In this document: in pieces, positions 15,727 through 58,528 of the stretch
How positions within the stretch are numbered: position 1 is the first letter of the stretch
Layout of the letters: each line of letters opens with the position of its first letter
Source of the DNA: a virus
Virus record (IMG/VR): IMGVR_UViG_3300027782_000058
Coordinates: 1 to 64,000 of that record
Reading direction: 5' to 3' (one strand)
DNA length: 64,000 nt
Position numbers and translations under genes: made by a program
The notes under the pieces: generated by a model
The model's input: only the letters and a program-made list of their open reading frames with translations
Told to the model about the DNA's origin: nothing
Databases searched by the model: none

Positions 15727-15779
15727 TTGACAGCATCATAGACACCTGCTACTATCGTACTAATGCCGCAGGGAGCGGC
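15727..15779 (+). promoter_or_regulatory. Promoter and 5' hairpin for the VWA gene
   Basis: TTGACA 15727-15732, 17-nt spacer, TACTAT 15750-15755; GCCGC-AGGGA-GCGGC hairpin 15765-15779. The in-frame ATG at 15763 is part of the hairpin and is not the start. Confidence 0.75.
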
Positions 15780-15798
15780 CAACGACAGGAGAGACATA

Positions 15799-17646: not shown

Positions 17647-17651
17647 GACTT

Positions 17652-17706
17652 CCGACCGGGGTGGCAACCTCTCCCTAGGTGTGTGCCAACGCGCCGCCCC
17701 GGTCGG
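17652..17706 (+). terminator. Terminator after the VWA gene, with CTCCCTAG in the loop
   Basis: CCGACCGGGG (17652-17661) pairs with CCCCGGTCGG (17697-17706). The large loop shows CTCCCTAG at 17671-17678. Confidence 0.7.
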
Positions 17707-37074: not shown

Positions 37075-38739
37075 GTGGGAATCTTCCGCAGTGAGTCAGA
37101 CAGTCCGTCGAGCGGACTCGTCCCTGTCATCTCGCCCGCACGCTCCCTCTCGTACTCGGCACCCCGCTCCCTGACGGCTGCCGCCGCCCAGATCAAGGTC
37201 AATGACAAGGGCGAGTTTGAGCAGTTCAAGTCACGCCGCAGCGCCGGTTCCAGCGCGTGGCAGGCAGAGGCTTGGGAGTACTACGACGCCATCGGTGAAG
37301 TGAAGTACGCCTTCAACCTCGTTGCTTCCGTTGTCTCCCGAATTCGCATCTACTCGGCCATCGTCGAGGATCCCAGCCAGACTCCCGTGTCCGTCACCGC
37401 GTCCCCCAAGGTAGACGCGCGTCTGGCACAGGCCGCAGAGCGCGCGCTTGACCGCCTGACCAGCGCCTACGGTGGCCAGCCCGGACTCCTGCGCGACGCC
37501 GCGCTGAACCTGAGCGTCGCAGGCGAGTGCTACCTCATCCAGATCCCCGCCCAGATCAGCACCGGCACCCCCGAGTCGTGGGACATCCGGAGCATCGACG
37601 AGGTGAAGACCGACCCGCGTGGCGGGTACTCGGTAATCGGACGCCGTGAGGCCGCGAACTCCAACCAGCAGTCAGGTTCCGCTCGCAGCCTAGGCTCCAA
37701 GGCGTTCGTTGGTCGCATCTGGCGCTCGCACCCCCGCTACTCCGACGAGGCTGACTCGTCCCTGCGCGGCCTTCTGGACCTGTGCGCCGAACTCCTGCTG
37801 CTCAACCGCACCTTCCGCGCCACCGCACGCAGCCGCCTCAACGCTGGCGCGCTCTACCTGCCTGACGGCTTGTCCGTCGCGGCTCAGGGCGACCCAGACA
37901 TCTACGAGGATGACTCGGACCTGAACCCTCCGTACACGCAGGAGGAGGCTGAGGACGAGTTCGAGGAGCAGTTGATCGACGCGATGACGACGCCGATCCG
38001 CGACGAGGAGTCCGCCTCCGCCGTCGTGCCGCTGATCATTCGCGGTCCTGCCGAATTGGGTGACAAGATCAAGCAGTTCAAGTTCGAACGGTCCTTCGAC
38101 CCGGCTCTGGCCGAGCGCTCCGACCGCGTGCTTGAGCGCATCCTGCAGGGTCTGGATGTCCCCAAGGATGTCATCACGGGGCTGGCGAACGTCAAGTACA
38201 GCAACGCACTGCAGATTGACGAGAGCCTGTACAAGGCTCACATCGAGCCGCTGATGCTGCTGATCGTTGACGCGCTGACCGTCGTCTACCTGCGTCCCTA
38301 CCTCGTAGCCTCCGGCTTCGCCCCCGACGAGGTTGACCGGATCGTCGTCTGGTACGACCCCTCAGCCGTCTCCACGCGCAACGACCGCGCATCGGATGCT
38401 GACGCCGGGTACGACCGCTACGCCGTGTCACTCGACACTTGGCGTCGGGCGCATGGCTTCTCAGATGCTGACGCTCCCACGCCCAACGAGTTGGCGATCC
38501 GCATGCTCGCAGAGCGCGGCACCCTGACCCCTGAACTCACCGAGGCCATGCTCTCGGCCCTCGCCCCTCAGGTCATGGAGGCCGTGCGCGCCGCTCAGCA
38601 GGGTGCCAGCGCCGGAGCAATCCCACCGGAGGTTCAGCAGTTGCTCAAGGCTCAGGGGCAGCAGCCCGGCGCAGCGCCAGAAGCCCCGGCTCCAGCACCA
38701 GCACCCGCACCAGAGCAGGGCGGTCAGCCCAATGCCTGA
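37075..38739 (+). CDS. Portal protein
   Basis: 554 residues from GTG 37075 (AGAAGG upstream). FNLVASVVSRIRIYSAIVE, then GGQPGLLRDAALNLSVAGECYLI with WDIRSIDEVK, a clip-like region, and the stem/crown motif VLERILQGLDVPKDVITGLANVKYSNALQIDESLYKAHIEPL typical of actinophage portals (SPP1/HK97-type). It forms the dodecameric DNA channel at one capsid vertex. Pro/Ala/Gln-rich C-terminal tail. Confidence 0.9.
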   Translation: MGIFRSESDSPSSGLVPVISPARSLSYSAPRSLTAAAAQIKVNDKGEFEQFKSRRSAGSSAWQAEAWEYYDAIGEVKYAFNLVASVVSRIRIYSAIVEDPSQTPVSVTASPKVDARLAQAAERALDRLTSAYGGQPGLLRDAALNLSVAGECYLIQIPAQISTGTPESWDIRSIDEVKTDPRGGYSVIGRREAANSNQQSGSARSLGSKAFVGRIWRSHPRYSDEADSSLRGLLDLCAELLLLNRTFRATARSRLNAGALYLPDGLSVAAQGDPDIYEDDSDLNPPYTQEEAEDEFEEQLIDAMTTPIRDEESASAVVPLIIRGPAELGDKIKQFKFERSFDPALAERSDRVLERILQGLDVPKDVITGLANVKYSNALQIDESLYKAHIEPLMLLIVDALTVVYLRPYLVASGFAPDEVDRIVVWYDPSAVSTRNDRASDADAGYDRYAVSLDTWRRAHGFSDADAPTPNELAIRMLAERGTLTPELTEAMLSALAPQVMEAVRAAQQGASAGAIPPEVQQLLKAQGQQPGAAPEAPAPAPAPAPEQGGQPNA

Positions 38740-39990: not shown

Positions 39991-42900
39991 GTGAAGGACA
40001 ACATCGATGGCGCAAGCGCCAAGTCGACAGCCCGACTCAATGCTCGGATTGATGCGCTGGTCGCGTCTGCGAATGATGGAACCCCGGCCCAGCGTCGGGT
40101 GAACCTTGGTGCTGCCCGTGAGGTGGTCCGACGCTCGCTGAAGTCAACACAGGGTAGGGCATTCTCTCAGCGCGAACACATCGCACTGACAGCGCTCTCG
40201 CACTTCATCACTCTGGCACAGCGTGACAAGTCAGTCGCGCTCTACCCGGCCAACACTGACCTTCTTCCTCTCGGCCACCCCCGGTCGACCGCTTCCAACG
40301 CCCTCACAGCCTTCGCCCTCCGCGAGCACCGCGCTCGCTGGTTTGCCGCTGACCACCGCGTCTTGGACGAGCACCGCGCGCTGGTTGCGTCTGCTCTTGC
40401 TGCTGAGTACGGCTCGATGGAGCACTTCTACGCGCTCTCGATGCTGGAGCAACTGAACGATGGCTCCGCCCTCGTTGCCCTCGTTGCATCCTTCGGTGAC
40501 GGCAACTCGCGTGCTGCCCGTTCGGCTCGTGCCCGTCGTCAGCGCCGCGACCGTTTCGGTCGATTCGCCTATCAAGGCGGCGGTCTCCGCAGCCTTCTCC
40601 GCTTCGGAGACGGCAGCGTTCGCTCGCTCACTGGTAGTTATGTCAAGGACTCTGATGACGGTGAGTCGTTTGATGTCGAGACCCCGGACGGAACCCTCTA
40701 CCGGATCCCAGCGAGCAAGGCCGAGTCTGTCAAGGCCGTACTTTTTGACAGTCCCGATGGCTTCAGTCCCATGCCCGCCAAGTATGACTCATCTGATCCG
40801 ATCATCGACGTTGCTGACCTTGTCAAGATTGACATGCCATCCGGCTACATCGAGAAGTCTCGCGACAAGGATGGATCGGTCACATACGGTCTGGCCAATG
40901 GTGACGACTACCTGATTCGTGCGACTCCTGCAGGCAACGGCACGACTGCGTACGAGGTCGTGCGGAATGATGGCAAAGACACCCCGGTTGGTCTTGCCAG
41001 CAACTGGTCTGACGTACACAAGATGGTTGTGCAAGACGGCAAGAAGGCCAACCGCGAGGACGCCGCCAAGGCTCGTCTTGAGGGCAAGTCCGGTCCTGAG
41101 TCTGACTACCTAGACTTCCTTCCCGATGTCAACATCGCGGCCAAGGATGAGGGCAGCGAGGTTCGTCGTCAGGCACAGTCGATCATGGACTTCTTCGAAC
41201 TGGATGAACTTCCAGATGGAATGTCCGCCCAGCAACTGGCCGACCGCACACGTCTGAACGCTGATGCTCTCAAGGATGGCTCGCTCAAGGGCGGCGAAGA
41301 CCTCGCTCAGGACTTCTACGACGCTGCTGACGCCATCGAGCGCAAGTCTGGTCTCGCCAAGCCCGAGAAGAAGGCCGACCTGACCCCCGCTCCCTCCACT
41401 GCCCCAGCCCCCGAGGCCGGTAAGTGGGAGCCCAGCGACACCCGCATTGACCTGCCCTACAAGGAACCGATCATCGGCCCGGACGGCAACCTGACCGGAG
41501 AGTACAAGGACGGAACGGCGAATATCGTAGACATCAATGGCCGCAAGGTCGTGGTGGTGGATATCAACGGAACTCCTGTCCCCTTCTACCTGTCTTCCGG
41601 CGACGGCGGCAAGAAGGATGTAGAGGCTGGTAAGTGGTACCCCTTCTTCGGCTGGGGCATGGACGGCTGGATGAACAAGGGTAAGTCCGACGAGATCAAC
41701 GACTACTACGGGTCTCCTGAACTCCGGGCGCAGGCCGAGTGGCTCGACGCGAACATCGGAGATATCCGAGACGACAAGAGCATCCCGCGCGATTCCTCAA
41801 GTCAGGGCAACCTCGACATGTGGATCAACGATCACGTTGGTCTCAAGCCTGCATCCAACGACACCCCCACCACACGCACTGAGTTCGACGCAAACGTCGC
41901 TGAGATCAAGCGTCGGATTGAAGCAGGCAATGGTGGCTCCAACAAGGAGCAGGCCCGCCTAGATGCCACTCCTACTCCAGAGTCAGGAGGCACATCGGCC
42001 TCACCGGAGCAGATCGCCGAACTCCGCAGGCTGATGGACGAGCGTAATGTTCGTGATAACGTTCCCGATCTTGCCGATGGCATCGAAAAACTGATCGCGG
42101 ACAACACCCTAGGTAAGGAACAAGCAGACCGGCTGATCAGTGGAATCAGGGAAAACCGGGACGTGTTCCCTGAGCCCGACACCACTCCCGAGAAGGCTCC
42201 CAGTAAGTCCGACGACTTCAACGCACCTGAGGGCGCTTACGCGCTGAACCAGACTGCAATCGACAACTTCGAGCCTCAGGGTCGCGTAGATGAGAGCAGT
42301 ACGGACTTCACCGACGACCCCTCCGAACTCGCGCAGCGGTTCGACACAGATGACCTGACGGCTGCTCTTGAGCAGGCCCTCATCGGTGAGGACGGCGCTG
42401 ACGGCGACGTTCAGGGCCGTGGTGCTGGCAATCTCCAGTTCAACAGGGGAGACGAGTGGGTTCCTGCTGAGGCGCTTTATCAAGCACTCGACCAGCAGGA
42501 CGAGGATGCCCGCGCCATCGCCAACGATATCTACGACAGTGCGCGCAAGGGTCAGATGAAGGAGCAGGCCCGCCTTGACGGTGCTCCGCTTCCTGAGAAG
42601 GCGACCAAGGATGAGACTCCCGTCTCTGCCCCCGAGAAGCCAGCGGCGCAGTCTGAGATGAAGCCTCTTAAGGAACTGAAGAAGGGAGATGTGGTTCGCT
42701 TAGAGGACGGCACTCTTCGCACTGTCTCTGAGGTCTATGGCGTCCGTAGTTACAATTCGAGGACCAACAGTTTCGATGGATCCACCGAGGTCGAATTCAC
42801 TGACGGCTCTACCATGCGTCGTTCTAACGAGGATGCGCGGAACAAGCCTGACTTCGAGGTAGTTTCGTCCGAGTCCGAGTCCGGCGTCAACATTCCAGAG

Positions 42901-45900
42901 AATCTCCCTAGCCTGCTGGAAGACCTGTCTCCAGAGGACCGCGCTAACTACGAGCAGACCGGCGACTACCGTCCCTACCTGCCCGAGAACGCAGACATTC
43001 CTGACTACCCGTCTTCCATGTACCAGATGGATCAGTCTCCTCTGTCGCCAGAAGAAATTGGCCCGCTGGCGGAAGACGCCCCGCAGGGGTTCGACAACGA
43101 CCCGATGCGTCTGGCAACGGAGTACAACTCTGAGACGCTCACTGAGGAACTCACCAATGCTCTGACCGGCGATAACGAGCGCGACCTAGGCTACGGCTAC
43201 TTCGGCTACACGGATGAGAATGGCGAGGAGTGGGCGGGCAACATCCCCGCCGAGGCCATCCGTGACGCGCTTCAGTTGCAGGGTGTCAACACTGATCAGA
43301 TCGTTCAGGATGCAATTGACAAGACAGCCAAGGCCCCAGAAGGAGTAGAAGTAGACGTACCAGAAAAGCCATCGCGTGAGCCTTCAGCAGAGCCTCTCAC
43401 TGATGTCCGGTACAGCGATGCGATCCTGCTGTCCAACCCTGAACTGCAGAACTCCATCGACGCTGCCCTTGAAGATGCCATGAACGAGGGCCGCAACATC
43501 GGCAGGAACGCCACTCGCTCCTCTGCCAATCGACTCGAAGTCCTGCTGAACGAGCAGGCCATGCGTCGGGCTGGCGCATCTCGCGCTGATCGTGTGAAGG
43601 CTCAGCGTCTGCTGGAGCAGATTCAGGCCCTGCGTGACACCAACATGCCCGCTGACTTCAGCAAGCCCTCGATGCGTGGCGGTAAGAAGGATCAGGACAA
43701 GGAGAAGAGCCTTGTCGATCAGTTCAACGCCATCCCCGGCGTAAGCCAGCAGCGCTACAGGCTCGACACCCCCAGCAAGACCGTCGAGAAGCAGGGTGGC
43801 GTACCCAGTCTCTACGCTCCGTCAACAATTGAGGTCGCACCCGGCCTCAACTGGGAGCAGCGCGATAATGGCCGGTCAAAGGGTGGAAAATTCGGATCCC
43901 AGTCTGGAAGCACCTACATCATCTCTGGCTCCCGCGCCAAGGATCTCAATCCTGACGAGATGAAGAAACTCGGATTCTACTGGGATGAAAACTCTCAGTC
44001 ATGGATCAACTACAACGGTGCTGTTGGCAATATGTCCTCCAAGGACAAGAAGAACATCACTGACTCCCTCAGCAAGTCCGGATTCGATGTCAACCCTGCA
44101 TTCACCAATGGAGGCTTCATTCCTTCATGGCTCAGGGACTCCGCTGACGTTGTCAACCCGAAGATTGTTGAGACAGTGTCGGCTCCTAGGCCGCGTCGTC
44201 CTTCTCCCCCCGGTCGTCCGATCACGGATGGAAGGCTTCGCGACCTGCTGGAGCAGGCTGACGGTGACCCCAAGAAGTTCCGTGAACTTCTTGGTAAGGA
44301 GAACGTCCACGTCTTCGACTTTGAGACGACCGGCATCCGGTTCGACGAGAACGGGAACATGATCGACTCCGGTGAACCGTGGGCGATTTCGGTTGCGCGC
44401 TACAACCCGGCCACGGGTGAGATGGAGCAGAAGACCTTCTACATGAACCCCGGCCAGTCCATCAAGGACACTTGGGCTGGCGGGACGAATGAAGACGGCA
44501 GTCCTCGCGCCATTGACTCAGATGGAAAACCGCTCACTGACGAGTGGCTCGCACAGCAGCCTTCGCAGGCTGAGGCTCTGCAGGCCGCTCTTGATTTCAT
44601 GGGTCAGGATCCGATCCTGTTCGGGCACAACTCAACCTTCGACCACGACACGTTCACCCGCAAGGCGGACGAACTCGGTCTGGACTACCGCCCGGCTGCC
44701 ATTGGTGACACGATGAGCCTTTCTCAACTGGTGCATGATGGCGAGCAACTGCCATCGCACTCGCTCGGTTATCTGGCCAAGCATCACGGGATTCCCAGTC
44801 AGGGCACCGCGCACACGGCTGATGCTGACACCCGCACGACTGCTGCGCTGCTCGACAAGTTGCTCACGAAGGCCGAGCGTGCAGAACTCGGCATGACGCC
44901 GGAGAACCTCGACAGGTGGCAGGGTAAGAACGAGGATCGATACAACAAGGCACTGGCTGACTACAACGAGGCCAATGCCCCACGGGTAGCCACTGAGGCA
45001 GTCCTTGAGGCCGCTCAGGATCCGACTGAGGTTCCTTCTCCGGAAGAGACCTCTGCCCGCGTTGACAAGATGATCAAGGACATGTCTGGCAACCCTGATG
45101 GTGCGCCTAACCCTGAGACAGACATCGTTGATGAATCATCAGATGGAGCCGAACCGCTTCCTAACGGTTACAGCCGTAGCAATCTGCATGAGTTGGCTCA
45201 GTCGGCACTGGATGAGTTTGATCGCAACAGTGATATCAACAGTTACACGCAGTTCACGCCTCAGGAGATCAAGGAGGTTCAGGACAAGATCGATGCTCTT
45301 CGTGAGATGTCCAATGACCCCTCGGTCAGCGACGAGCAGGTAGCCGCTGCACTGGATGACATCGCTGAAGACCTTGATGCAATGGTCAGCCGTCTCGGTG
45401 ACCCGAACGACGACCGCACTCCTCTGCGAAACATCGACATTATCGAGAATCTCAACCGAGAGCGGGACTACGTCACCGAGACCGCAGACATGCTGCGCGC
45501 TCGTAACGGCGAGAACAAGCCGGAGCCGGAGTCCGACGACACCACCAACGAGGTGGATGACGCACAGGTCCGCGACCAGATGGCTGGGGAGGCTGCCGGA
45601 ATTCGCAACATCGTCAACGAGACTGGCAGCACTAACGCCGACCTAACTGATGAAGAGCGCCAGAGGTTCTGGGACTATCAGACTCGCCTTGAGGAGGTCA
45701 TCGCTCTCGTTCGTGGCAACCGCAAGGACGAGATGGGTGACAGGGATCTGGCAACCTACGTCAACCGTGTGGCAATTGACCTGAAGAATGACTTCGGCCC
45801 CGGTGGTGAGTTAGAGGATGTCGCGTACTCGCGCGGCATGGACCGCAACAAGGTTGAGAACATTCTTGATCTGGCGGACAAGTTGGAAGTGCTCACCAAC

Positions 45901-48900
45901 CGGCTGATGCAGCAAGTCTTGGATCGTGAGGGAAGTAAACCTCCCGCAGTCCGCACGCCTGCCATACCAAAGAGTGGTCCCGGCTCGAAGCCTGAGGCAC
46001 CGACGAAGCCGGAAGACTCTGGACAACTCAAGCCGCTCAAGCCAGCCAACAACCCATCCCGAGATGAACTGATTGACATTCGAAGTAATTTTGACAGCCT
46101 CATGGCGAACGAGACTGACTCTGAAATTATTACAATGGGATCAGATATTTCAAATGCATTGAACGATGTGCTAGATCTCATCGAGGCCGATCCAGATGGC
46201 AAGAACCGCGAGACTGGTCGGTCACTGGACGCGCTGGCAGGAGACATTCAAGAGTTGGCAGATGTTGTCGAAGACGACAGGCTGAAGTCATTTGACGGAC
46301 TACTAGACAGAATCCGCACTCTTTCACGCGCATATCGTCGTCGTAACCGCGAACAACGTGGGGGTAACGGTACTGCCCGTAACCGCCGTCAAACTCCCGC
46401 AGCGCCTAAGAGCGAGCCGGTTGACACCCCGGAGACGAAGCCGGGACCAGACGCTCCAACTGTCACTAGAAAGGCTCAGTTTACTAACCCGGACACTGGA
46501 GCACGGTCAGAGAACTGGACTCTCAGTAACGGTGACCAAATTATTGCTATTGATTCCGTCACTGGTAGTGGGATTGCCACGGTTTACTATCACGATGATG
46601 AGCCTGAGGTCAGGCGTTGGGACACTGACAACTTCGCTGAGGCTCTTCAACTGCACCTCGCTGAGCGCAGTGGCAACTCCTCCTCCGCATCTCGGGAGAT
46701 CACGCAGCCGAACCCGTCGAACCTCCCACCAGAGGTCAAGGTTGGGAAGACTGGCAAGACTGGTGTTGGTGCCAAGGTTCCCGACGCTCCCGGCGAGCGT
46801 GCGGTCGGCATCACCAACGGAGCCGACCTTCCCAGTGCGCCTCCTCCCCCGAACAGCGATGGGCCGGTAGGCCCGAACGGGGAGCGGCTGCTTCGTCGTG
46901 GCCGGGAGAATCGCAACTTCTGGGATCACCCGATCATGCAGAGTTGGGCGCGTCGTCGATTCCGCAAGCCGCTTGAGGGTCAGTTCGTCGACCGGAGCCG
47001 TGTGCCGATTGCCTACGGAGACCGCGTCGTACACACTAACCCGAAGGCCGCTCGTTCGACTCTTCGTCCAGACGGCACTCCAATGACAGGTGTTGTCCTC
47101 AACCGTCAGGACAATGTTGGTCGCGAGAATGGCCACAACCGTGACCACGTCACGGTTCAGTGGGAGAACGGAACAGTGTCACACTACGTTTCCCACAACC
47201 TGCAGATCGTCGGACTCACTGAGGCTGACACTGAGTGGCGTACCCTCGTGCATCCTGACGAGACTCCTGACACTCCTGAGTCTGAGCGTATCGACCTACC
47301 GGCTGGCTTCGACTGGAACCAGAAGCGTCGAGGAGCAGCGCCATCTGGACGTATGGGACCAAATGGCAGGCTATCTGGAGAGGGTCGTGGGCAGAACAAC
47401 ATCCCTGTCGAGGCCGGAGACGAGTCCACTCGCTTCGAGCGAGGCGAAGGTGTAGAGGGTCTGATCGCTGACTTCAACGGCGTACAGATTCAGGTCGGCG
47501 ACCGCGTCTACCACCGAGGCAAGGTAGGATCACGTCGCGGGCTCACTGGCGGAACAGTGATCGGGAAGAAGTACATCGCCCGGTACCGCACGATCACGGA
47601 CGAGAACGGTAACAAGAAGCGAGTCCGTGTCGGCTACGCCTACCAGCCTATCGTCCGCTGGGACAACGACCCCGAGATTAAGGAGTGGTCGGCCAATCAA
47701 CTGATCGTCACGACTCCTGATGCTGAATCTCGGAATGTCTCAGATGCGCCGATCCCGACCCTTCGTCGTGAAGGACGCGGAGCGAGTTCTAAGTGGGTTC
47801 CTGACACTGAGGCACCGGACTACAACGCCGATTCGGCTAGTGGGTTCGAGCCGATCCCGGCAAACGGCGGAGGTTCTGGGGCTCCTTCGACTCCAACCCC
47901 CTCCCGCTCTCGCCGAGTCCAGCCCTCCGGAAATCGACCGGGATACGAGTTCGTTGGCTCTAGAGAAGTTCTCTTCATCGGAACGTCCGAGCAGATCAAT
48001 CGTCTCATCGATAACTATGCTGTCGATGACCAAGAGGCGGAGTTGTTCCGGTCTGAGATCGTAGACGACACCAACCCCGATGGCACGCAGAGTGGTAACG
48101 ATCAGATTATTCTGTCAATTGACCAAGGCGTCACCAATAGTGGGAAGACACCCAGAGAGTACGTTGAGGGCGTTCTCGACGAGACATTCGGTTCTGCCTC
48201 TTCAGGCACCAGCCCGACTTCCTCCACACCAAACGCCCCGGAAGCAGATACCTCCACTCCTGACGATGGAATGGTGGTGCAGCCTAAGGACAAGAACGGT
48301 CAGTTGCTCGACCTTGGTGACATTGTCGAAGCCAACAACGGCAAGCGAGGCATGGTTCGAGGCTTCACTCCAGACGGCAAGGTGCGAGTCAAGTACGAGG
48401 ATGGCCGTTACGGCAAGTTGAATGCTGACAAACTATCTCGCACTGGCCAAACGACACGCGGTCCTGCTGACCCAACCGGCGCTGTCGGCGAACCCGTCGA
48501 GGGTGAGTTCGGTGAGTGGGGTGCCCGCGCTGAGAAGATCCGTGAGGCCAAGAACCGTGGTCCGGCAGATCTTACTGATCTGATTCAGCGAGGTGATGAT
48601 GCCCTACCTCCGGGCAAGACCCTCAAGGACTTGATGCAGGAGGTCTGGGGCCTTGAGCACAAGTACAAGGACAAGGACGGCAATGAACGAAGCCTACGGG
48701 CCGAGGTCACTGGCGCTCACGTCTCTCGCGGCAGGCAGATCTCGGTCTCGATGAGAATTCTTGATGAGAACGGTCGTGTGGTTGGGACGATGAGTCGCCA
48801 ACTCAAGATGGATAATAACGGCAATCTGTCTGTCTACCACGCATATTTTGAGATCACTGACAGCAAGCGTCAGGGCACTGGCTTTGCAACGGCTATCAAC

Positions 48901-49356
48901 CGCTACGCCGAGGACTTCTACATTGCTCAGGGCGTTCGAGAGATCGGTGTTCAGGCTGCTCTTTCGAACGGTGGTTACACTTGGGCCAAGCAAGGCTTCG
49001 AGTGGGACCACCCACACTACGGGACTCCGTGGGCTGACCCTCTGAGGAGGCTGGGAGAGTACGGTCGAAGAGGAAACATGTCCCCGGCGCTGAGGAAGGT
49101 CTACGATGACCTAATGTGGCGTTTCCGCAACCTAGACCCAAGTGATCCCAACTTCCCGACTCCGCAGGAAATCGTCATGTTCGGATGGACACCCGGAGCC
49201 ACTTCTTGGCCCGGAAAGTCGATCCTTGTTGGATCTGGTTGGTATGGCGTCAAGCGTCTCAGGCCCGGTGGTCGCAGGACCACTCAGGGCGAGCGCGATA
49301 ATGGCAAGTGGTGGCATGACCAGATCTTCAGGCGGAACAACCAGAGGAAGGCGTAG
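39991..49356 (+). CDS. Giant multidomain head-module protein with DEDDh exonuclease and GNAT-like domains
   Basis: 3121 residues from GTG 39991. Domains: 1-100, REVVRRS...DLLPLGHPRST copy of the upstream gene's domain; 190-250, small beta module (GRFAYQGGGLRSLLRF); 250-1400, long acidic/Glu-Asp-rich repeats with several DALTxAxxQALxGEDG-like units; about 1430-1625, a DnaQ-type exonuclease with D1443, E1445 (FDFETTG), D1551 (GHNSTFD), H1608 and D1613 (AHTADAD), all catalytic residues present; 1650-2150, helical; 2280-2860, three KOW/SH3-like modules (GDRVVHT, GDRVYHRG, GDIVEANNGKRGMV); about 2900-3040, an acetyltransferase-like domain with SKRQGTGFATAI near 2958. Its place between portal and protease suggests an injected or capsid-internal protein that guards incoming DNA. 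It fits the polyvalent-protein concept; enzymatic roles are inferred. Confidence 0.75.
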   Translation: MKDNIDGASAKSTARLNARIDALVASANDGTPAQRRVNLGAAREVVRRSLKSTQGRAFSQREHIALTALSHFITLAQRDKSVALYPANTDLLPLGHPRSTASNALTAFALREHRARWFAADHRVLDEHRALVASALAAEYGSMEHFYALSMLEQLNDGSALVALVASFGDGNSRAARSARARRQRRDRFGRFAYQGGGLRSLLRFGDGSVRSLTGSYVKDSDDGESFDVETPDGTLYRIPASKAESVKAVLFDSPDGFSPMPAKYDSSDPIIDVADLVKIDMPSGYIEKSRDKDGSVTYGLANGDDYLIRATPAGNGTTAYEVVRNDGKDTPVGLASNWSDVHKMVVQDGKKANREDAAKARLEGKSGPESDYLDFLPDVNIAAKDEGSEVRRQAQSIMDFFELDELPDGMSAQQLADRTRLNADALKDGSLKGGEDLAQDFYDAADAIERKSGLAKPEKKADLTPAPSTAPAPEAGKWEPSDTRIDLPYKEPIIGPDGNLTGEYKDGTANIVDINGRKVVVVDINGTPVPFYLSSGDGGKKDVEAGKWYPFFGWGMDGWMNKGKSDEINDYYGSPELRAQAEWLDANIGDIRDDKSIPRDSSSQGNLDMWINDHVGLKPASNDTPTTRTEFDANVAEIKRRIEAGNGGSNKEQARLDATPTPESGGTSASPEQIAELRRLMDERNVRDNVPDLADGIEKLIADNTLGKEQADRLISGIRENRDVFPEPDTTPEKAPSKSDDFNAPEGAYALNQTAIDNFEPQGRVDESSTDFTDDPSELAQRFDTDDLTAALEQALIGEDGADGDVQGRGAGNLQFNRGDEWVPAEALYQALDQQDEDARAIANDIYDSARKGQMKEQARLDGAPLPEKATKDETPVSAPEKPAAQSEMKPLKELKKGDVVRLEDGTLRTVSEVYGVRSYNSRTNSFDGSTEVEFTDGSTMRRSNEDARNKPDFEVVSSESESGVNIPENLPSLLEDLSPEDRANYEQTGDYRPYLPENADIPDYPSSMYQMDQSPLSPEEIGPLAEDAPQGFDNDPMRLATEYNSETLTEELTNALTGDNERDLGYGYFGYTDENGEEWAGNIPAEAIRDALQLQGVNTDQIVQDAIDKTAKAPEGVEVDVPEKPSREPSAEPLTDVRYSDAILLSNPELQNSIDAALEDAMNEGRNIGRNATRSSANRLEVLLNEQAMRRAGASRADRVKAQRLLEQIQALRDTNMPADFSKPSMRGGKKDQDKEKSLVDQFNAIPGVSQQRYRLDTPSKTVEKQGGVPSLYAPSTIEVAPGLNWEQRDNGRSKGGKFGSQSGSTYIISGSRAKDLNPDEMKKLGFYWDENSQSWINYNGAVGNMSSKDKKNITDSLSKSGFDVNPAFTNGGFIPSWLRDSADVVNPKIVETVSAPRPRRPSPPGRPITDGRLRDLLEQADGDPKKFRELLGKENVHVFDFETTGIRFDENGNMIDSGEPWAISVARYNPATGEMEQKTFYMNPGQSIKDTWAGGTNEDGSPRAIDSDGKPLTDEWLAQQPSQAEALQAALDFMGQDPILFGHNSTFDHDTFTRKADELGLDYRPAAIGDTMSLSQLVHDGEQLPSHSLGYLAKHHGIPSQGTAHTADADTRTTAALLDKLLTKAERAELGMTPENLDRWQGKNEDRYNKALADYNEANAPRVATEAVLEAAQDPTEVPSPEETSARVDKMIKDMSGNPDGAPNPETDIVDESSDGAEPLPNGYSRSNLHELAQSALDEFDRNSDINSYTQFTPQEIKEVQDKIDALREMSNDPSVSDEQVAAALDDIAEDLDAMVSRLGDPNDDRTPLRNIDIIENLNRERDYVTETADMLRARNGENKPEPESDDTTNEVDDAQVRDQMAGEAAGIRNIVNETGSTNADLTDEERQRFWDYQTRLEEVIALVRGNRKDEMGDRDLATYVNRVAIDLKNDFGPGGELEDVAYSRGMDRNKVENILDLADKLEVLTNRLMQQVLDREGSKPPAVRTPAIPKSGPGSKPEAPTKPEDSGQLKPLKPANNPSRDELIDIRSNFDSLMANETDSEIITMGSDISNALNDVLDLIEADPDGKNRETGRSLDALAGDIQELADVVEDDRLKSFDGLLDRIRTLSRAYRRRNREQRGGNGTARNRRQTPAAPKSEPVDTPETKPGPDAPTVTRKAQFTNPDTGARSENWTLSNGDQIIAIDSVTGSGIATVYYHDDEPEVRRWDTDNFAEALQLHLAERSGNSSSASREITQPNPSNLPPEVKVGKTGKTGVGAKVPDAPGERAVGITNGADLPSAPPPPNSDGPVGPNGERLLRRGRENRNFWDHPIMQSWARRRFRKPLEGQFVDRSRVPIAYGDRVVHTNPKAARSTLRPDGTPMTGVVLNRQDNVGRENGHNRDHVTVQWENGTVSHYVSHNLQIVGLTEADTEWRTLVHPDETPDTPESERIDLPAGFDWNQKRRGAAPSGRMGPNGRLSGEGRGQNNIPVEAGDESTRFERGEGVEGLIADFNGVQIQVGDRVYHRGKVGSRRGLTGGTVIGKKYIARYRTITDENGNKKRVRVGYAYQPIVRWDNDPEIKEWSANQLIVTTPDAESRNVSDAPIPTLRREGRGASSKWVPDTEAPDYNADSASGFEPIPANGGGSGAPSTPTPSRSRRVQPSGNRPGYEFVGSREVLFIGTSEQINRLIDNYAVDDQEAELFRSEIVDDTNPDGTQSGNDQIILSIDQGVTNSGKTPREYVEGVLDETFGSASSGTSPTSSTPNAPEADTSTPDDGMVVQPKDKNGQLLDLGDIVEANNGKRGMVRGFTPDGKVRVKYEDGRYGKLNADKLSRTGQTTRGPADPTGAVGEPVEGEFGEWGARAEKIREAKNRGPADLTDLIQRGDDALPPGKTLKDLMQEVWGLEHKYKDKDGNERSLRAEVTGAHVSRGRQISVSMRILDENGRVVGTMSRQLKMDNNGNLSVYHAYFEITDSKRQGTGFATAINRYAEDFYIAQGVREIGVQAALSNGGYTWAKQGFEWDHPHYGTPWADPLRRLGEYGRRGNMSPALRKVYDDLMWRFRNLDPSDPNFPTPQEIVMFGWTPGATSWPGKSILVGSGWYGVKRLRPGGRRTTQGERDNGKWWHDQIFRRNNQRKA

Positions 49357-49364
49357 GGACTCCG

Positions 49365-50291
49365 ATGAACAGCAAGCAGCGCTCCGCCAATGCGGCGAAG
49401 GTCTATCAGGACTGGATCAAGGCAAATCCGAAGATGGACCCGGACAACCCGACTCCGGAGCAAGAGAACGACTACTTCATGCGTCTCTACGAGTCGGATC
49501 CTGATGTCGCAGGCAAGGGATGGGCTGATGCCGTATCCAAGATGAGCGAAGAAGAGATCACACAGTATTTGGACGATCAGGAGAAGGCATCTCCCGAGAC
49601 AGCAAACTCCTTCCGTGTACAGGCTCTGATGGCGGCTGTAGATGAGTCGACCGACGAACTTGTTGGTCTGGTGCTATTCGTTCCATCATCTGGAACAAAG
49701 GGTCTAGAGACCGAATGGGTTCGTGTCGATGGTGAGTGGGTTCCCGAGAGCGTCAGCCCTCTGGCCGATATGTCAGAAGATGATCTGGTCTACTACCCAG
49801 TAACGGACGACTACATCTTAATCTATGATGGAGGATCACGGTCCATCGAGGACGCGATGAGCCACAAGACGGAGATCCCTGAGCCTGTTGCGCCAGTCTC
49901 GTCACCCATCACTGCCGCAGCCTTCTCATGCCCGGCTCCCACGCAGGACATCCCTCTCAACCTAGCCAATCGACAGAAGGCCATTGATGGCGCTGGCTAC
50001 GGACCGATGAATCCAACACGCCCGAATGAGCAGTTCTGGCAGGCAAAGGCAGACCGTTGGAGCACCACTGTAGAAGAGGCTAAGTCGTCCAAGTGCGGCA
50101 ATTGTGCAGCATTCATTATCACTGCTTCTATGAGAGAATGTATCAATCAAGGGCTAGGCGATGACGCGGACTCTTGGAACGTGATCAACGCTGGTGATCT
50201 CGGATACTGTGAAGCATTCGACTTCAAGTGCGCTTCTGAGCGGACTTGTGACGCATGGATCGTCGGCGGTCCCATTACTGAGGAGAAGTAG
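49365..50291 (+). CDS. Head-module protein with conserved Cys motif
   Basis: 308 residues, ATG 49365. Acidic N-terminal 200 residues; C-terminal 110 contain IPLNLANRQKAIDGAGYGPMNP and KCGNCAAFIITASMREC...GDLGYCEAFDFKCASERTCDAW, six spaced Cys resembling the C-terminal motif of the 38732 protein. May bind a metal cluster; found beside capsid genes in related phages. Role unknown. Confidence 0.7.
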   Translation: MNSKQRSANAAKVYQDWIKANPKMDPDNPTPEQENDYFMRLYESDPDVAGKGWADAVSKMSEEEITQYLDDQEKASPETANSFRVQALMAAVDESTDELVGLVLFVPSSGTKGLETEWVRVDGEWVPESVSPLADMSEDDLVYYPVTDDYILIYDGGSRSIEDAMSHKTEIPEPVAPVSSPITAAAFSCPAPTQDIPLNLANRQKAIDGAGYGPMNPTRPNEQFWQAKADRWSTTVEEAKSSKCGNCAAFIITASMRECINQGLGDDADSWNVINAGDLGYCEAFDFKCASERTCDAWIVGGPITEEK

Positions 50292-51193: not shown

Positions 51194-54100
51194 GTGGGCT
51201 ACTTCGGTAGGTCTGGCGATCTAGCGCTGTTCGTGTTCGACGAACTGGGTGTCGTCGTGGACGAGGGGCTCAACCTCGTCGTGGAGAAGGGGCATCTGGA
51301 TGCCCTGATCGCTTCCGGCGACTGGAACACTGACGACTCTGAATACTCCAAGGCGGCAGAGGACATCGCGCAGGCGTCCATCACAGATCTCGATATCCAC
51401 GTCTTCTCGTCTAATGACCGTCTCTACACGATCCCGAAGTCCGTCCAATCGGAGGCCAAACGTGCTCTTGAGTGGAGGAAGACGCACAAGCGTGGCGGAA
51501 CTCCAGTAGGACTAAACACCGCTCGCACTCTGGCCGAGGGTGGACAGATTGGGATCAAGAAGATCCGCCACATCGCTCGCTACTTCCCTCGTCACGAGGT
51601 TGATAAGCGTGGCCAAGGGTACAAACTGGGAGATAAGGGATTTCCCAGCAACGGTCGAATCGCATGGGCTCTCTGGGGAGGGGACGCTGCACAGAAGTGG
51701 GCAGCGACTATCGTAGAACGAGACGACAAGAAGAAAAAGTCTCTCACTGCTGATGGACTTCCTTCCGAGTACTTCGAGCCGAGCAGCAGTCGATTTGACT
51801 ACTTCCGAATGGCAGAAAATCTGCCTGCTGAAGAGGCTCCGGAGTTCATGGCCCGAGTCCGTCTCGACGGGAGCGGGATTGACCGCATCTACATGATGGA
51901 TGCTGATGGGATCGTCTACATCTGGGACGACGGATCTTGGGATGACCTAGGTCTGTTCGAGCAGGACATCATGTCATTTGATGCTTTCTTCGACATGCCA
52001 GACGACGACGTAGACACCATGTACGTTCCAGTGGACGCTGAGGCTGCTGTCAAGATCTGCGCCCTCATCGATGCTGAGCCGTTCTCCCCCAAAAACACTA
52101 GCGACTTCTCTTCTGACGAAGAGATGCTAATGGTACATAGCGCCCTGTCCGAGATCGACTGGGACGAGGTCGACAGGGTTCTGGTAGCCGCTGGTGAGGC
52201 TCCTGCAGCAGATGCCCCCGCCGACCAGCCTCAGGGGGATGGCAACTACACCCCGGATGAGCGCTCCAAGAATGCGTCCAAGCAGGTTCGTGACGCGACT
52301 GGCAAATTCTCGAAGAGCGGATCACGAGTAGTTGTTGGCAATGACACGAACTCCCGTGGAACGATCACGTCGATCAATCCTGACACTCAGACTGTCGACG
52401 TACAACTGGACAACGGAAACACTGTCACCGTCCCCGGAACTGCCACTCAGGGGGAGGACAAGTTCGTAGACGTGTCGGCAGAGAACGAGACCAACATGAC
52501 TGTCCCTCCGAGTGCCACCGCTGGCATTCTAGGCCAGCCTCGCGTCCCATCAAATCAGCCGAATGCTCGTATCCCCGGCATGCTTCCCCCTCTCACTGGA
52601 GAAAGCATCTCTCTGCTGCTCAATGACTGGCCTGCATGGGTTGCAGCCGAGCGTGAGTTGTACCGGCAGACCGCTCCCAAGACTCCCCCGAACATCGGTC
52701 CGCGCCAGTACAACGTTCCCCAGCGGGACAACACTGGTGTAGATGTCCGAGACCCCTCCACCGGAGGCACTCGAAACGTCGCATGGAATCCGATGCAGGC
52801 TCCCAACGCATACAACCACCCCCTGCTGCGCGACTGGCTGAAAGGCAGCGACCGTCACGGCCACCCAAACCGTGGATGGTACAACCCAATCGTTCGCAGG
52901 AACGTGATCGAGCCCCGCAGGTACTTCTCCGCCGAGGTTCTCATCGCTGCTGGTGCCGAACATCCTGAGGTGCAGGAGATCAAGAAGCCTGATCCCAATG
53001 CTCCCAAGGCAAAGTCAGGCCCTGACTTCACACCTGAAACCTCTGACGTTCCTCCCATGTACATGGCCATCGTCGCTCAGGATGATCCTCAAGCCGTCAT
53101 GGACCTGATCTCTCTGGTTCCAGTGAACTCCCAGTCATCCACTCCGACCATCTTCCGCAGGGAGCCCGGTGAGTGGGTCAAGGATGATGCCATCCTCGCT
53201 GACCTGAACTCTCCCACGCCTCCACCAGTGGTTGTGCTGGACAACAAGAACCTAGCATCAGTGGTCGAGCAGATCGACCAAGCCTTGGTGGCATCTGCCT
53301 CTTATCTGCTTGACCGTCGTCTTGCTGATCTCTGGATCAGCGGTGCTGATGTCATGGCGATTGTCGCTGCTGGTGGCGTTGACCGCAACCGTGGCAACGC
53401 TGAGAAACTACGTCGGTACTGGACTGTTGGTGAGGGTGGAGCGAAGATCCGCTGGGGGACTGGCGGAGACTGGAAGCGCTGCGTTCGCCACCTGTCGAAG
53501 TATCTCGGTCCGCGTGCGAAGGGCTACTGCAACCTTCGTCACAAGGAGATGCTGGGCATCTACCCCGCTACCCACGCGAAGCGCCTCCGCGAGAACTCGA
53601 TGGAGCAGCCTCTATACATGGAGGTTCCAGACTCTGACCTGCAGATGCCCATCGAGGCCATTCATGCTGAGGAAGACAAGAACTTTGATCACGAGTGGGA
53701 GCCAAACGAAGAAGTCGTTTGGATGCTCATCGAACTCAAGGATCTTGATGACGACACGTTCAGCCTAGTAGCCGCTGGCGGTCTAGACCGCAATCGCGGA
53801 AACGCTGAGGAGTTGCGCCGCTACTGGACGGTCGGCAAGGGTGGAGCCAAGATTCGCTGGAACACCAAGGGCGACTGGACCCGCTGCACACGTCATCTTG
53901 CCAAGTACCTAGGCCCACGAGCCAAGGGCTACTGCGCTCTCCGCCACAAGGAGATGACAGGTATGTGGACCGGAGATCAGGCTCACCGTCAGATGTACGG
54001 GCGCAAGTCTTTCAGCACCGACTTCATCCTGCCTGAGCAGCAGATCATCGAGAACGCTGCACTGTCTGCTCAGATCGCCTCTGCCAAGGCCCGTATCTCT

Positions 54101-55690
54101 GGTGTCACTGCTTCCGGCAGCACTCCTGAGTACGGCTCTGCATTCTTCATCCCTCTGGTCATCCCTGAGCAGATGGAGTCTGGTGATGGACGGAAGTTCA
54201 CCAAGGACGCCATCGACATGCGTCAACTCCCTCTCCCCCTGCTGTGGCAGATCAAGACTGGAGCCGGGCACGACGGTTCGGTTGTGGTTGGAAAGATCAC
54301 GCACATGCAGCGGACTAAGGATGGCATCGGTCATGCCTTCGGCGTCTTCGACAACGGAGAGCATGGACGCGAGGCTGAGCGCCTTGTCCGTGGCGGCTTC
54401 ATTCGTGGTGTCTCCGCAGATCTGGACCGATTCGAGGCAAGTGAAGAACCTGAGGAAGCCTCAGGTGACGACTCCAAGAAGATCGGCTCAAGCAAGATCA
54501 ACATCACAAAGGCCCGCGTAATGGCCGTTACCCTTGTACCTAAGCCAGCATTCCAAGAATGCACGATTGAACTCATTCCAGACATGGCGCATAAGCAGCA
54601 GGAGGAAACCGTGGTACCTGACGGAGTGTATGTCGAGGATTCGGATGCCGCCGAGGCTTCCGCGCTGCTCGCTTGCGGAATGGTTGCCGGTGCGATTCCG
54701 GTAACTCCGCCGAAGGAGTGGTTCACCAACCCCGGACTGTCCAAGCCGACTCCCCTCACCGTTGATGAGGAGGGCCGAGTGTTCGGTCACATTGCCGCAT
54801 GGCATGTGGACCACATCGGCATGTCGTTCGGAACTCGTCCTCCCCGAAGCGCCAGCCAGTACGCCTACTTCCACACTGGAGTCATTCGTACTGAAGAGGG
54901 CTCAGACGTTCCGGTTGGTCAGTTGACACTGGCTGGAGGGCACGCCTCTCTGGAGGCAAGCGCCTCCGAGGCCGTTCGTCACTATGACGACACTGCCAGC
55001 GCCATCGCTGATGTCCACGCAGGCGAGGACAATCACGGCATCTGGGTAGCCGGAGCCCTGCGCCCCGGAACCACTCCCGAGCAGGTTCGTGCGCTGCGCG
55101 CTTCTGCCCCATCCGGTGACTGGCGTCCGATCAAGGGCAAGTTGGAACTGGTTGCCGTGTGTCAGGTCAATGTTCCCGGCTTCCCCGTCGCCCGCGCGCG
55201 TGTGGCGTCTGGTCAGGTTCTTGCTCTGGTTGCCGCTGGGGCAAACACTCTGGCGAAGATGAAGGGCGATCCGGTAGCCGAACTAGCCGCTCGGATCGAC
55301 AAATTGGAGCAGTTGGAGAAGGCTCCTCTGGTTGCTGCCGCTGAGGCTGCCAAGGCTCGCATCGCATCAGTCCGGGCTGCTGAACTGAGCGCCCGAGTGC
55401 ATGGCACCGGAGAGTTCGCAATCTCAGAGGAGACTCGGATGCGTCTGGCCGGGGAGGGCAAGGCTCTGCCTGACGGCTCCTACCCGATCCGCAACGTCTC
55501 TGACCTCAAGAATGCGATCAAGTCCTACGGGCGGGCCAACAAGAGCGACCGGGCCAAGGTCCGCAAGCACATCACGAAGCGGGCCAAGGCTCTGGGTCAT
55601 CCTGAACTGATCCCCGATGAGTGGACCGCTGCTTCCATTCTTGAGGCTCGCGTCGCCTCCGCCATGACGGAGGAGCCAAGTGCCGAGTAA
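51194..55690 (+). CDS. Capsid maturation protease fused to accessory head domains
   Basis: 1498 residues from GTG. 1-190: a module with RGGTPVGLNTARTLAEGGQIG...PSNGRIAWALWGGDAA. About 375-415: KOW-like. About 725-795 and 859-930: duplicated DRNRGNAExLRRYWTVGxGGAKIRW...YLGPRAKGYC modules. 970-1130: S78-like prohead protease with His1026 (AGHDGSVVVGKI) and Ser1074 (RGVSAD). 1150-1330: AWHVDHIGMSFG...GIWVAGALRPG domain found downstream of proteases in actinophages. C-terminus: LPDGSYPIRNVSDLKNAIKSYGR...RAKALG. The protease would cleave scaffold and capsid precursor. Confidence 0.8.
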   Translation: MGYFGRSGDLALFVFDELGVVVDEGLNLVVEKGHLDALIASGDWNTDDSEYSKAAEDIAQASITDLDIHVFSSNDRLYTIPKSVQSEAKRALEWRKTHKRGGTPVGLNTARTLAEGGQIGIKKIRHIARYFPRHEVDKRGQGYKLGDKGFPSNGRIAWALWGGDAAQKWAATIVERDDKKKKSLTADGLPSEYFEPSSSRFDYFRMAENLPAEEAPEFMARVRLDGSGIDRIYMMDADGIVYIWDDGSWDDLGLFEQDIMSFDAFFDMPDDDVDTMYVPVDAEAAVKICALIDAEPFSPKNTSDFSSDEEMLMVHSALSEIDWDEVDRVLVAAGEAPAADAPADQPQGDGNYTPDERSKNASKQVRDATGKFSKSGSRVVVGNDTNSRGTITSINPDTQTVDVQLDNGNTVTVPGTATQGEDKFVDVSAENETNMTVPPSATAGILGQPRVPSNQPNARIPGMLPPLTGESISLLLNDWPAWVAAERELYRQTAPKTPPNIGPRQYNVPQRDNTGVDVRDPSTGGTRNVAWNPMQAPNAYNHPLLRDWLKGSDRHGHPNRGWYNPIVRRNVIEPRRYFSAEVLIAAGAEHPEVQEIKKPDPNAPKAKSGPDFTPETSDVPPMYMAIVAQDDPQAVMDLISLVPVNSQSSTPTIFRREPGEWVKDDAILADLNSPTPPPVVVLDNKNLASVVEQIDQALVASASYLLDRRLADLWISGADVMAIVAAGGVDRNRGNAEKLRRYWTVGEGGAKIRWGTGGDWKRCVRHLSKYLGPRAKGYCNLRHKEMLGIYPATHAKRLRENSMEQPLYMEVPDSDLQMPIEAIHAEEDKNFDHEWEPNEEVVWMLIELKDLDDDTFSLVAAGGLDRNRGNAEELRRYWTVGKGGAKIRWNTKGDWTRCTRHLAKYLGPRAKGYCALRHKEMTGMWTGDQAHRQMYGRKSFSTDFILPEQQIIENAALSAQIASAKARISGVTASGSTPEYGSAFFIPLVIPEQMESGDGRKFTKDAIDMRQLPLPLLWQIKTGAGHDGSVVVGKITHMQRTKDGIGHAFGVFDNGEHGREAERLVRGGFIRGVSADLDRFEASEEPEEASGDDSKKIGSSKINITKARVMAVTLVPKPAFQECTIELIPDMAHKQQEETVVPDGVYVEDSDAAEASALLACGMVAGAIPVTPPKEWFTNPGLSKPTPLTVDEEGRVFGHIAAWHVDHIGMSFGTRPPRSASQYAYFHTGVIRTEEGSDVPVGQLTLAGGHASLEASASEAVRHYDDTASAIADVHAGEDNHGIWVAGALRPGTTPEQVRALRASAPSGDWRPIKGKLELVAVCQVNVPGFPVARARVASGQVLALVAAGANTLAKMKGDPVAELAARIDKLEQLEKAPLVAAAEAAKARIASVRAAELSARVHGTGEFAISEETRMRLAGEGKALPDGSYPIRNVSDLKNAIKSYGRANKSDRAKVRKHITKRAKALGHPELIPDEWTAASILEARVASAMTEEPSAE

Positions 55691-56450: not shown

Positions 56451-56617
56451 AATCATTCAACTGCAACAGATAGACAACTAAATAGCCCACAAATAATGTA
56501 TCATTCAGTATCAGGTGGAGTGCCTCCGCACAGTTATGCGGCTGGAGTCCCTCAGCCTCGACTGATCATCGAATGGCGAACGCTCTGTTCGCCACTGACT
56601 GCCCCGGAGGAGGGACA

Positions 56618-58528
56618 GTGGACCGAATCAAGCAGATGATGGACTCACTGCCTGAACTTAGTGACGATCAGGTCACCGAACTTCAGAGTGAGATCATCAA
56701 CGAATTCGAAACGGTCGAGAAGGAAGAGCCGACTCCGCAGACAGTTGACGCGATGACTTCTCTTGCCGACATGCTCGACACAGTGCGTACCGAGGTCAAG
56801 CGCCGCGAGGCCGCTGCCGTCGAACTCGTTCAGGTTGCCGCAGAGGCTGCCTCTCGCGTTCACGGCTCGACCGAGGGCGAGGCCGAGACCGAGGCCGGTA
56901 ACATGACCGACGAGGTCGTGGAGGACACAGTCTCAGAGGTTGTTGAGACTCCCGCCGCCGAGGCCCCTGAGGGAGAGGCTCCTGCCGCTCCCGAGGAGAA
57001 GGCACCAGTCGAGGCTCCCGCCGAGGGAGACGAGTCAGAGGAAGAGAACATGGATGGTGAGGCCAAGAAGAAGGCCGCACCCGCCGAAGCGTCAGCCGAT
57101 GCAGAGAGTGCTGCTGAACTCTCGACCGAAGCCGCCCCAGAAGCCGAAGCCGCAGTCCTCGTTGAGGATGGGGCCGAGGCTGCTTCAGAAACATCAGACA
57201 ACACTGAGGCGCAGACCGCGCCAGAAACTATGGAGGCACCCGTGACCGCCGCTGCTGAGAATGCAGACCTCACCCCTGAGGTTCCGGCTGACCGCCGTCC
57301 CACCCCTGATTCATCGGCTGTCGTGGCGATCACGGCTGGCGCTGACATTCCGGGCTACACGGCTGGCAGCCCCTTGTCCGACATGACTGAGGTCTCCGAG
57401 GCGATGGTTCGTCGTCTCCACGGCCTCCGTAACATCAAGGGTGGTGACGGCGACCAGCACATCGTGGCCTCGCTCATCACCTCCTACCCGCAGGAGCGCA
57501 CGCTCACTGCTGACACCGAGTCGAACAACGCGAAGATCAAGGGTGTCGAAGCCCTTGTTGCTTCCGGTGGCCACTCGACCCCGTTCGAGGTCCGCTACGA
57601 CATCTTCGCGTTCGGTAGCACCGTTCGTCCGGTTCGGGACTCGCTTCCGCGATTCCAAGCCGACCGTGGCGGTATCCGCTACATCGTTCCCCCGGTTCTG
57701 TCGGACTACGACAACGCCGTTGGCGTCTGGACCGCTGCCAATGACGCAGCCACCAGCCCCAGCCCAGCGTCGAAGACCAGCCTCACCGTTGCTGCCGCTA
57801 CGGAGACGACCGTCGCAACCGACGCCGTCACCCTGCAGTTGCAGTTCGGTAACCTCGTGACCCGCGCCTACCCCGAGTTGGTTGCTCGTCACAACGAACT
57901 GGCCCTGATCCAGCACGCTCGTGAGGCTGAGCAGTACCTCATGAGCAAGATCGGCGCTGGCTCAACCGCCATCACGAGCACCAGCCTCATCGGTGTTGCT
58001 CGCGACTTCCTAGTTCAGGTTGGTCGTGCCAGTGCGGGCTACCGCTCGCGTCACCGTCTCGACCCTAATGCCCCACTTCGCGTTATTGCCCCCGCGTGGG
58101 TGAAGGACGCGATTCAGGCTGACCTTGCTCTGGCCATGCCCGGTGACGGCACCCTTGCCGCCTCCGAGGCCGAGATCGAGGGTTACCTTCGCGCTCGCAA
58201 CGTCCTGATCACTTGGACGATTGACGGCGACGTGTTTGGTGCTCAGAGCGCAGCCGCGATGGTTGAGTTCGGTGACACCTTCGTCTGGTACATTTTCGCC
58301 GAGGGCACCTTCCTGTTCCTCGACGGCGGTACGCTCGATGTCGGTATCATCCGTGACTCGACCCTCGTCGGCACGAACGACTACAAGATGTTCATCGAGA
58401 CCTTCGAGGGCATCGCAAAGGTTGGCGTGGAGTCGCTCAAGGTGACCTCAACCATCTCGGTGAACGGTGCGGCTGCTGCCCTCCGCGACACCACTGGTGG
58501 TGCCACCGCCGCTGCCATCGAACTGTAG
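56618..58528 (+). CDS. Major capsid protein with N-terminal scaffold-like domain
   Basis: 636 residues from GTG 56618, chosen over ATG 56573 because GGAGGAGGG precedes it. Residues 1-70 helical; 75-220 extremely Ala/Glu-rich and acidic, a delta/scaffold-like region likely removed by the protease; 225-636 an HK97-fold capsid with FEVRYDIFAFGSTVRPVRDSLPRFQADRGGIRYIVPPVLSDYDNAVGVWT and later GTFLFLDGGTLDVGIIRD. The 122-nt leader before it has no other gene. Confidence 0.85.
   Translation: MDRIKQMMDSLPELSDDQVTELQSEIINEFETVEKEEPTPQTVDAMTSLADMLDTVRTEVKRREAAAVELVQVAAEAASRVHGSTEGEAETEAGNMTDEVVEDTVSEVVETPAAEAPEGEAPAAPEEKAPVEAPAEGDESEEENMDGEAKKKAAPAEASADAESAAELSTEAAPEAEAAVLVEDGAEAASETSDNTEAQTAPETMEAPVTAAAENADLTPEVPADRRPTPDSSAVVAITAGADIPGYTAGSPLSDMTEVSEAMVRRLHGLRNIKGGDGDQHIVASLITSYPQERTLTADTESNNAKIKGVEALVASGGHSTPFEVRYDIFAFGSTVRPVRDSLPRFQADRGGIRYIVPPVLSDYDNAVGVWTAANDAATSPSPASKTSLTVAAATETTVATDAVTLQLQFGNLVTRAYPELVARHNELALIQHAREAEQYLMSKIGAGSTAITSTSLIGVARDFLVQVGRASAGYRSRHRLDPNAPLRVIAPAWVKDAIQADLALAMPGDGTLAASEAEIEGYLRARNVLITWTIDGDVFGAQSAAAMVEFGDTFVWYIFAEGTFLFLDGGTLDVGIIRDSTLVGTNDYKMFIETFEGIAKVGVESLKVTSTISVNGAAAALRDTTGGATAAAIEL

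Follow-up and report, generated by a model that had tools for sequence, protein, structure and literature searches.

A giant protein from a phage head gene module with a predicted DEDDh exonuclease and the features of polyvalent proteins

The 3121-residue protein encoded in the late region of this phage appears to be a DEDDh-based version of the already known polyvalent-protein type. From its gene context we infer that it is packaged in the virion, injected and enzymatically active, comparable to DarB of phage P1, and we assign this reading a probability of about 0.62. It is favoured because the features of polyvalent proteins are present and because of the parallel to P1 DarB. The window, i.e. 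the whole stretch of DNA analysed here, comprises the opening 64 kb of a virus record that is 91,079 bases long.

Gene neighbourhood and probable host

The ORF at positions 39991-49356 is single and uninterrupted, starts with GTG and translates into 3121 aa. It occupies about 35% of the visible late genes, which span 27 kb, in line with the third that had been estimated. Its proposed placement between portal and protease also held up, with PHROG and Pfam matches for portal and DUF5824 proteins upstream and for protease and capsid proteins downstream:

37075-38739, + strand: portal protein, 554 aa (PHROG 776, E=4e-107; 71% identity to the portal of phage DSL-LC01)
38603-39988, + strand: DUF5824 protein (PF19141, E=3.8e-13; ORF as listed, the real start may be further downstream)
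39991-49356, + strand: giant polyvalent protein, 3121 aa (ORF and translation)
49365-50291, + strand: 308-aa protein (C-terminal domain elsewhere fused to DUF5824 proteins or portal)
51194-55690, + strand: head protease/structural protein, 1498 aa (PHROG 18402, head maturation protease, E=6e-59)
56573-58528, + strand: major capsid protein (PHROG 777, E=2e-84)

The 1498-aa protein shows a weak Pfam match to Peptidase_S78 and is 64% identical over 647 aa to the 'capsid maturation protease' of DSL-LC01. The domain of the 308-aa protein was also observed at the front of DUF5824 proteins or at the portal end in three related loci (L025, L028 and L036), a distribution that marks it as a mobile head-module domain. 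Ahead of its conserved fold, the capsid protein has a long spacer of acidic, low-complexity sequence in its N-terminal third; a short, conserved motif of the TA[AS] type in this spacer may be a site of maturation cleavage. Counted over the whole set, the pattern [VM]TA[AS] derived from this spacer occurred 16 times compared to 6.2 in shuffles; it is absent from the window giant and gave no support there. Further upstream in the window, two ORFs of 635 and 627 aa overlap over their full length on opposite strands (15760-17667, - strand; 15763-17646, + strand), and likely just one of them is a gene.

Judged by the portal, the nearest named relative is the Actinomycetia phage DSL-LC01 (71%), followed by large Microbacterium phages (56-61%). 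DSL-LC01 is a metagenome-assembled phage with Actinomycetia as predicted host (PMC10611076). By this relatedness, the host of the phage studied here is likely an actinobacterium.

Architecture of the giant protein

Comparison of homologous giants together with structure prediction divided the protein into the following parts:

40015-40491, + strand: N1, conserved all-helical domain, residues ~9-167 (profile matches 27 of 31 compared giants)
40501-40890, + strand: TAG module, residues ~171-300 (RRDRFGRFA motif, then an SH3-like small beta-barrel with a beta-rich extension)
41470-41817, + strand: mobile module, residues ~494-609 (elsewhere in the order in two other giants)
42163-42570, + strand: repeat module, copy 1, residues ~725-860 (giant comparison, AlphaFold2 model)
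42946-43350, + strand: repeat module, copy 2, residues ~986-1120 (giant comparison, AlphaFold2 model)
44191-44979, + strand: DEDDh exonuclease domain, residues ~1401-1663 (D1443, E1445, D1551, H1608, D1613)
45088-46590, + strand: window-specific region with internal similarity, residues ~1700-2200
46864-47517, + strand: module K, residues ~2292-2509 (common to six other giants)
48652-49260, + strand: GNAT-like domain, residues ~2888-3090 (acetyl-CoA-type loop RQGTGFA; profile and relatives)

In the AlphaFold2 model of residues 1-1125, N1 (pLDDT mostly 80-95), TAG (mostly 80-93 from residue 190 onward) and the repeats are confident, and the linkers between the modules are long, of low complexity and modelled with low confidence. 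A separate single-sequence model of the GNAT region reached a pLDDT of 48. A fold search with residues 1-1125 gave no match in the PDB at E<=0.001 and one unnamed viral model, A0A5J6TNB8, at 2.3e-9. Of the several KOW-like modules that had been proposed, one SH3-like small beta-barrel was modelled confidently at residues ~198-250, but no KOW or SH3 family passed its Pfam cut-off against the giant; the stretches labelled KOW-like fall in part within module K. The mobile module was found at residues 4880-4992 in one relative (L105) and 1143-1250 in another (L107), and the window-specific region was not found in the other giants compared. The N1 profile also matched the neighbouring DUF5824 protein at 7.5e-8, indicating that N1 and the DUF5824 domain are distantly related.

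The DEDDh domain is complete and conserved

The prediction of a complete DEDDh exonuclease was confirmed by profile searches and by residue conservation. Pfam RNase_T matched the giant with E=8.5e-9 (36.6 bits, curated cut-off 24) and PHROG 192, 'DNA polymerase exonuclease subunit', matched residues 1437-1663 with E=1.4e-22. Across 25 aligned homologous giants, D1443, D1551, H1608 and D1613 are identical in every one and E1445 is kept in 24, the one exception being a gap. Conservation of the five catalytic residues is far above chance expectation, indicating that the active site is maintained under strong constraint; such conservation speaks for constraint and does not reveal whether the substrate is DNA or RNA. 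The domain is a predicted 3'-5' exonuclease, and the only match of the giant to a sequence with solved structure is a DinG 3'-5' exonuclease. A role as the proofreader of the phage was set aside: the phage has a DNA polymerase of family A that itself matches an exonuclease domain, so that DEDDh would not be the only proofreader and the giant would be dispensable for this task.

The C-terminus is probably GNAT-like

For the proposed GNAT-like C-terminus, its loop and, less firmly, profile matches to the PDB speak in favour; neither the Pfam GNAT profile, which found nothing in the window giant even at E=1, nor the single-sequence model, which was poor and whose fold search was uninformative, gave support. 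In this low-confidence model, the RQGTGFA loop is preceded by a strand and followed by a helix. The PDB matches of a profile made from the window C-terminus and five phage relatives are for the most part GNATs (best E=0.0013), and 14 of 19 among the matches listed are named acetyltransferases. Most relatives retain the G-x-G-F/L loop. Taken together, these results make a GNAT-like domain probable. A scan for the domain from the window sequence alone gave no match, and the domain was not seen in any other of the 97 distinct giants examined.

The relatives of this domain point to the phage head. Gp5 of Microbacterium phage Jera is 30% identical to the window C-terminus over 231 residues and carries Phage_min_cap2 in front; its acetyltransferase match is sub-threshold (16.1 bits, cut-off 20.7). 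Further relatives are an 'acetyltransferase' of Gordonia phage VanLee and a 'minor head protein' of Alteromonas phage R7M, the latter matched weakly by the GNAT-like domain (E=0.04) and at 7.9e-11 with the six-sequence profile. Four IMG/VR loci (L117-L120) contain additional relatives: L117 and L118 combine a minor-head/MuF domain with the GNAT-like domain in one ORF, which in L118 directly follows the portal gene, and in L119 the upstream genes include a portal and a MuF gene. The fusion partners are minor-head/MuF proteins encoded beside portals.

A family of giants with a constant front end and a variable payload

Relatives of the giant were gathered from IMG/VR by portal-based and front-end-based searches; at least 321 related stretches were confirmed in the front-end search, and the best 80 of the 321 were kept. 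Two scans of 84,980 bacterial and archaeal genomes, for the GNAT domain and for the front end with a few exact peptide patterns, returned no relatives, and the family is apparently restricted to viruses. A DUF5824 gene lies directly upstream of the giant in all 97 distinct giants and a portal gene at most three ORFs upstream in 95 of 97, the recruitment of about 80 loci via the portal biasing the portal figure and not that for DUF5824. Protease and capsid genes follow downstream in the relatives.

Most complete giants have 2-6 thousand residues, with a maximum of 6091 aa. The order of modules is N1, TAG, one or two repeats (usually two), a variable stretch, DEDDh and a variable remainder, and front end and repeats are better conserved than the payload among the giants compared. 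DEDDh is present in 42 of the 97 distinct giants, among which only six ORFs longer than 2100 aa are without it. Two homologous giants are very large for phage proteins, namely those of L105 (83-18358 in G040; 6091 aa) and L089 (2458-18837 in G001; 5459 aa). Near the two ends of a 160,704-base record (G004), two different portal-DUF5824-giant modules were observed (L092 and L109), which reflect either a true duplication or an assembly that joined two phages.

The payload comprises diverse enzyme domains. A UvrD-type helicase above cut-off was found in 13 of 50 records of homologous giants, including the isolate Mimi, and MPTase-PolyVal in 11 of 50; in the giants whose domain positions were read, ArdC-N lies next to it. 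The 6091-aa giant matches DEDDh, helicase, NUDIX, WYL, KTSC and ADP-ribosyltransferase domains, and a kinase-like match below cut-off was seen among the homologous giants. Neither ArdC-N nor MPTase-PolyVal was found by Pfam in the window giant, and ArdC-N was not found in the phage's own genome.

Named phages carry TAG-bearing giants with other payloads in the same slot (DSL-LC01, the Microbacterium phages Pumpernickel and Zooman, and the Arthrobacter phage Mimi, the last with the UvrD-type helicase); in Pumpernickel, Zooman and Mimi, TAG is present while N1 and DEDDh are absent. DSL-LC01 additionally encodes a 466-aa 'cytoplasmic protein' composed of TAG and DUF3626 (L002, 10169-11569), possibly a second, smaller cargo. 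In Gordonia phage GMA2, Orf10 (L006, 7981-10632; 883 aa) follows the portal and is annotated as 'putative structural protein'; its C-terminus shows a weak match, below cut-off, to anti-CBASS Acb1 / 2H phosphoesterase (E about 1e-3), and the TAG module is absent from it.

TAG recurs in head protease/scaffold proteins

A TAG profile built from the giants only matched 40 protease/scaffold ORFs (E 3e-10 to 7e-5), in 39 of them at residues 349-387, and produced no match in 1200 shuffled sequences (60 proteins x 20). The protease protein of the window itself was matched weakly (E=0.01), and tblastn of the TAG module found no match among isolate phages. Presence of the module in both the cargo giants and the protease/scaffold proteins suggests that it serves both for docking in the procapsid.

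Proposed mode of action and alternatives

As a packaged and injected protein, the giant would dock during head assembly in the procapsid near the portal, using N1 and the SH3-like front end, and would be packed and then ejected together with the genome. In the new host, DEDDh would work as a 3'-5' exonuclease whose most likely targets are DNA ends, either of the phage genome in early processing or of host or rival DNA, and the C-terminal GNAT-like domain would acetylate a host protein.

The strict site beside portal and protease, the SH3-like TAG shared with protease/scaffold proteins and the better conservation of front end and repeats compared to the payload would also suit a protein that mainly organises the procapsid or portal vertex in a structural or scaffold-like role, and whose DEDDh acts on DNA ends while DNA is being packaged in the producing cell. 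We consider such an organiser unlikely, since a freely swapped payload (helicase, ArdC-N, NUDIX, ART, kinase-like, GNAT-like) fits delivered cargo better and some long members are without DEDDh. Still less probable is a late cytoplasmic enzyme of DNA metabolism, i.e. a hub of recombination, repair or replication that is merely located in the head operon. DEDDh and SF1 helicase in many relatives, as in DNA-processing enzymes, and the match to DinG are in agreement with it, but the invariant position in the head module, the minor head proteins fused to its GNAT relatives, the ArdC-N/MPTase-PolyVal domains of homologous giants and the separate polymerase with its own exonuclease domain argue against it. 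Finally, the low-complexity linkers and the head protease encoded nearby could indicate a polyprotein that is cut by this protease into separate effectors within the capsid; given that the candidate motif of the capsid spacer, itself perhaps not a real cleavage motif, is absent from the window giant, we regard this as very improbable.

We tentatively propose a modular delivery platform of tailed phages, an idea that is less likely than not. The RDRxGRFA motif and the SH3-like module would serve cargo giants and head protease/scaffold protein alike as a head-loading tag; the default payload would be DEDDh, in many cases together with an SF1 helicase, and would act on the ends of DNA just after entry.

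The results describe a large, widespread and so far little-described family of very large late phage proteins that combine a constant front end with swappable enzymes. They extend the enzyme classes that injected phage proteins are proposed to carry by an exonuclease, and TAG points to a possible head-loading module. As cultured Microbacterium and Arthrobacter phages have TAG in the same slot, packaging and delivery are directly testable.

Comparison with known systems

The term polyvalent protein denotes large proteins of several domains whose genes lie close to late virion genes and whose domains often occur fused to MuF elsewhere; GNAT and UvrD-type helicase are among the domain classes already described, and ArdC-N and MPTase-PolyVal are frequent hallmarks that are not required (Iyer et al. 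2017, PMC5512222). The resemblance to these proteins noted in the original prediction was borne out for the published features that can be checked in sequence. The window giant combines the unrelated DEDDh and GNAT-like domains in one chain, its gene sits among those for late virion proteins, its domains have relatives that are fused to MuF/minor-head proteins, and its homologues carry ArdC-N and MPTase-PolyVal. In contrast to the polyvalent proteins of that study, the giants possess a constant front end of N1, TAG and repeats and an almost universal DEDDh. DnaQ and DEDD are not mentioned in the main text of PMC5512222, the supplementary domain list apart; judged by this main text, DEDDh in polyvalent proteins is a lead towards novelty and not a finding.

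Two phage proteins each share one end of the window giant. The DSL-LC01 giant (WJZ48510.1, 3289 aa, 'hypothetical protein') occupies the same slot and aligns in N1, TAG and one repeat module, but no RNase_T match was obtained in its genome and no GNAT-like domain was found. Jera gp5 (WZB38554.1) resembles the C-terminus, but has 667 aa, a minor capsid domain in front and an annotation as capsid maturation protease.

No sequence match between P1 DarB and the giant was seen in the phage search. DarB, a 251 kDa protein with an N-terminal capsid-targeting/packaging signal, is found in virions, its gene adjoins portal and prohead protease by ORF number, and it is believed to enter the cell with the DNA, where it inhibits EcoK/EcoB restriction (PMC9024508). 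An inhibitor of EcoK/EcoB restriction differs from the DEDDh and GNAT-like enzymes predicted here. Both are giant proteins encoded beside portal and prohead protease, and by this analogy P1 DarB appears to be the best-studied parallel found for the giant.
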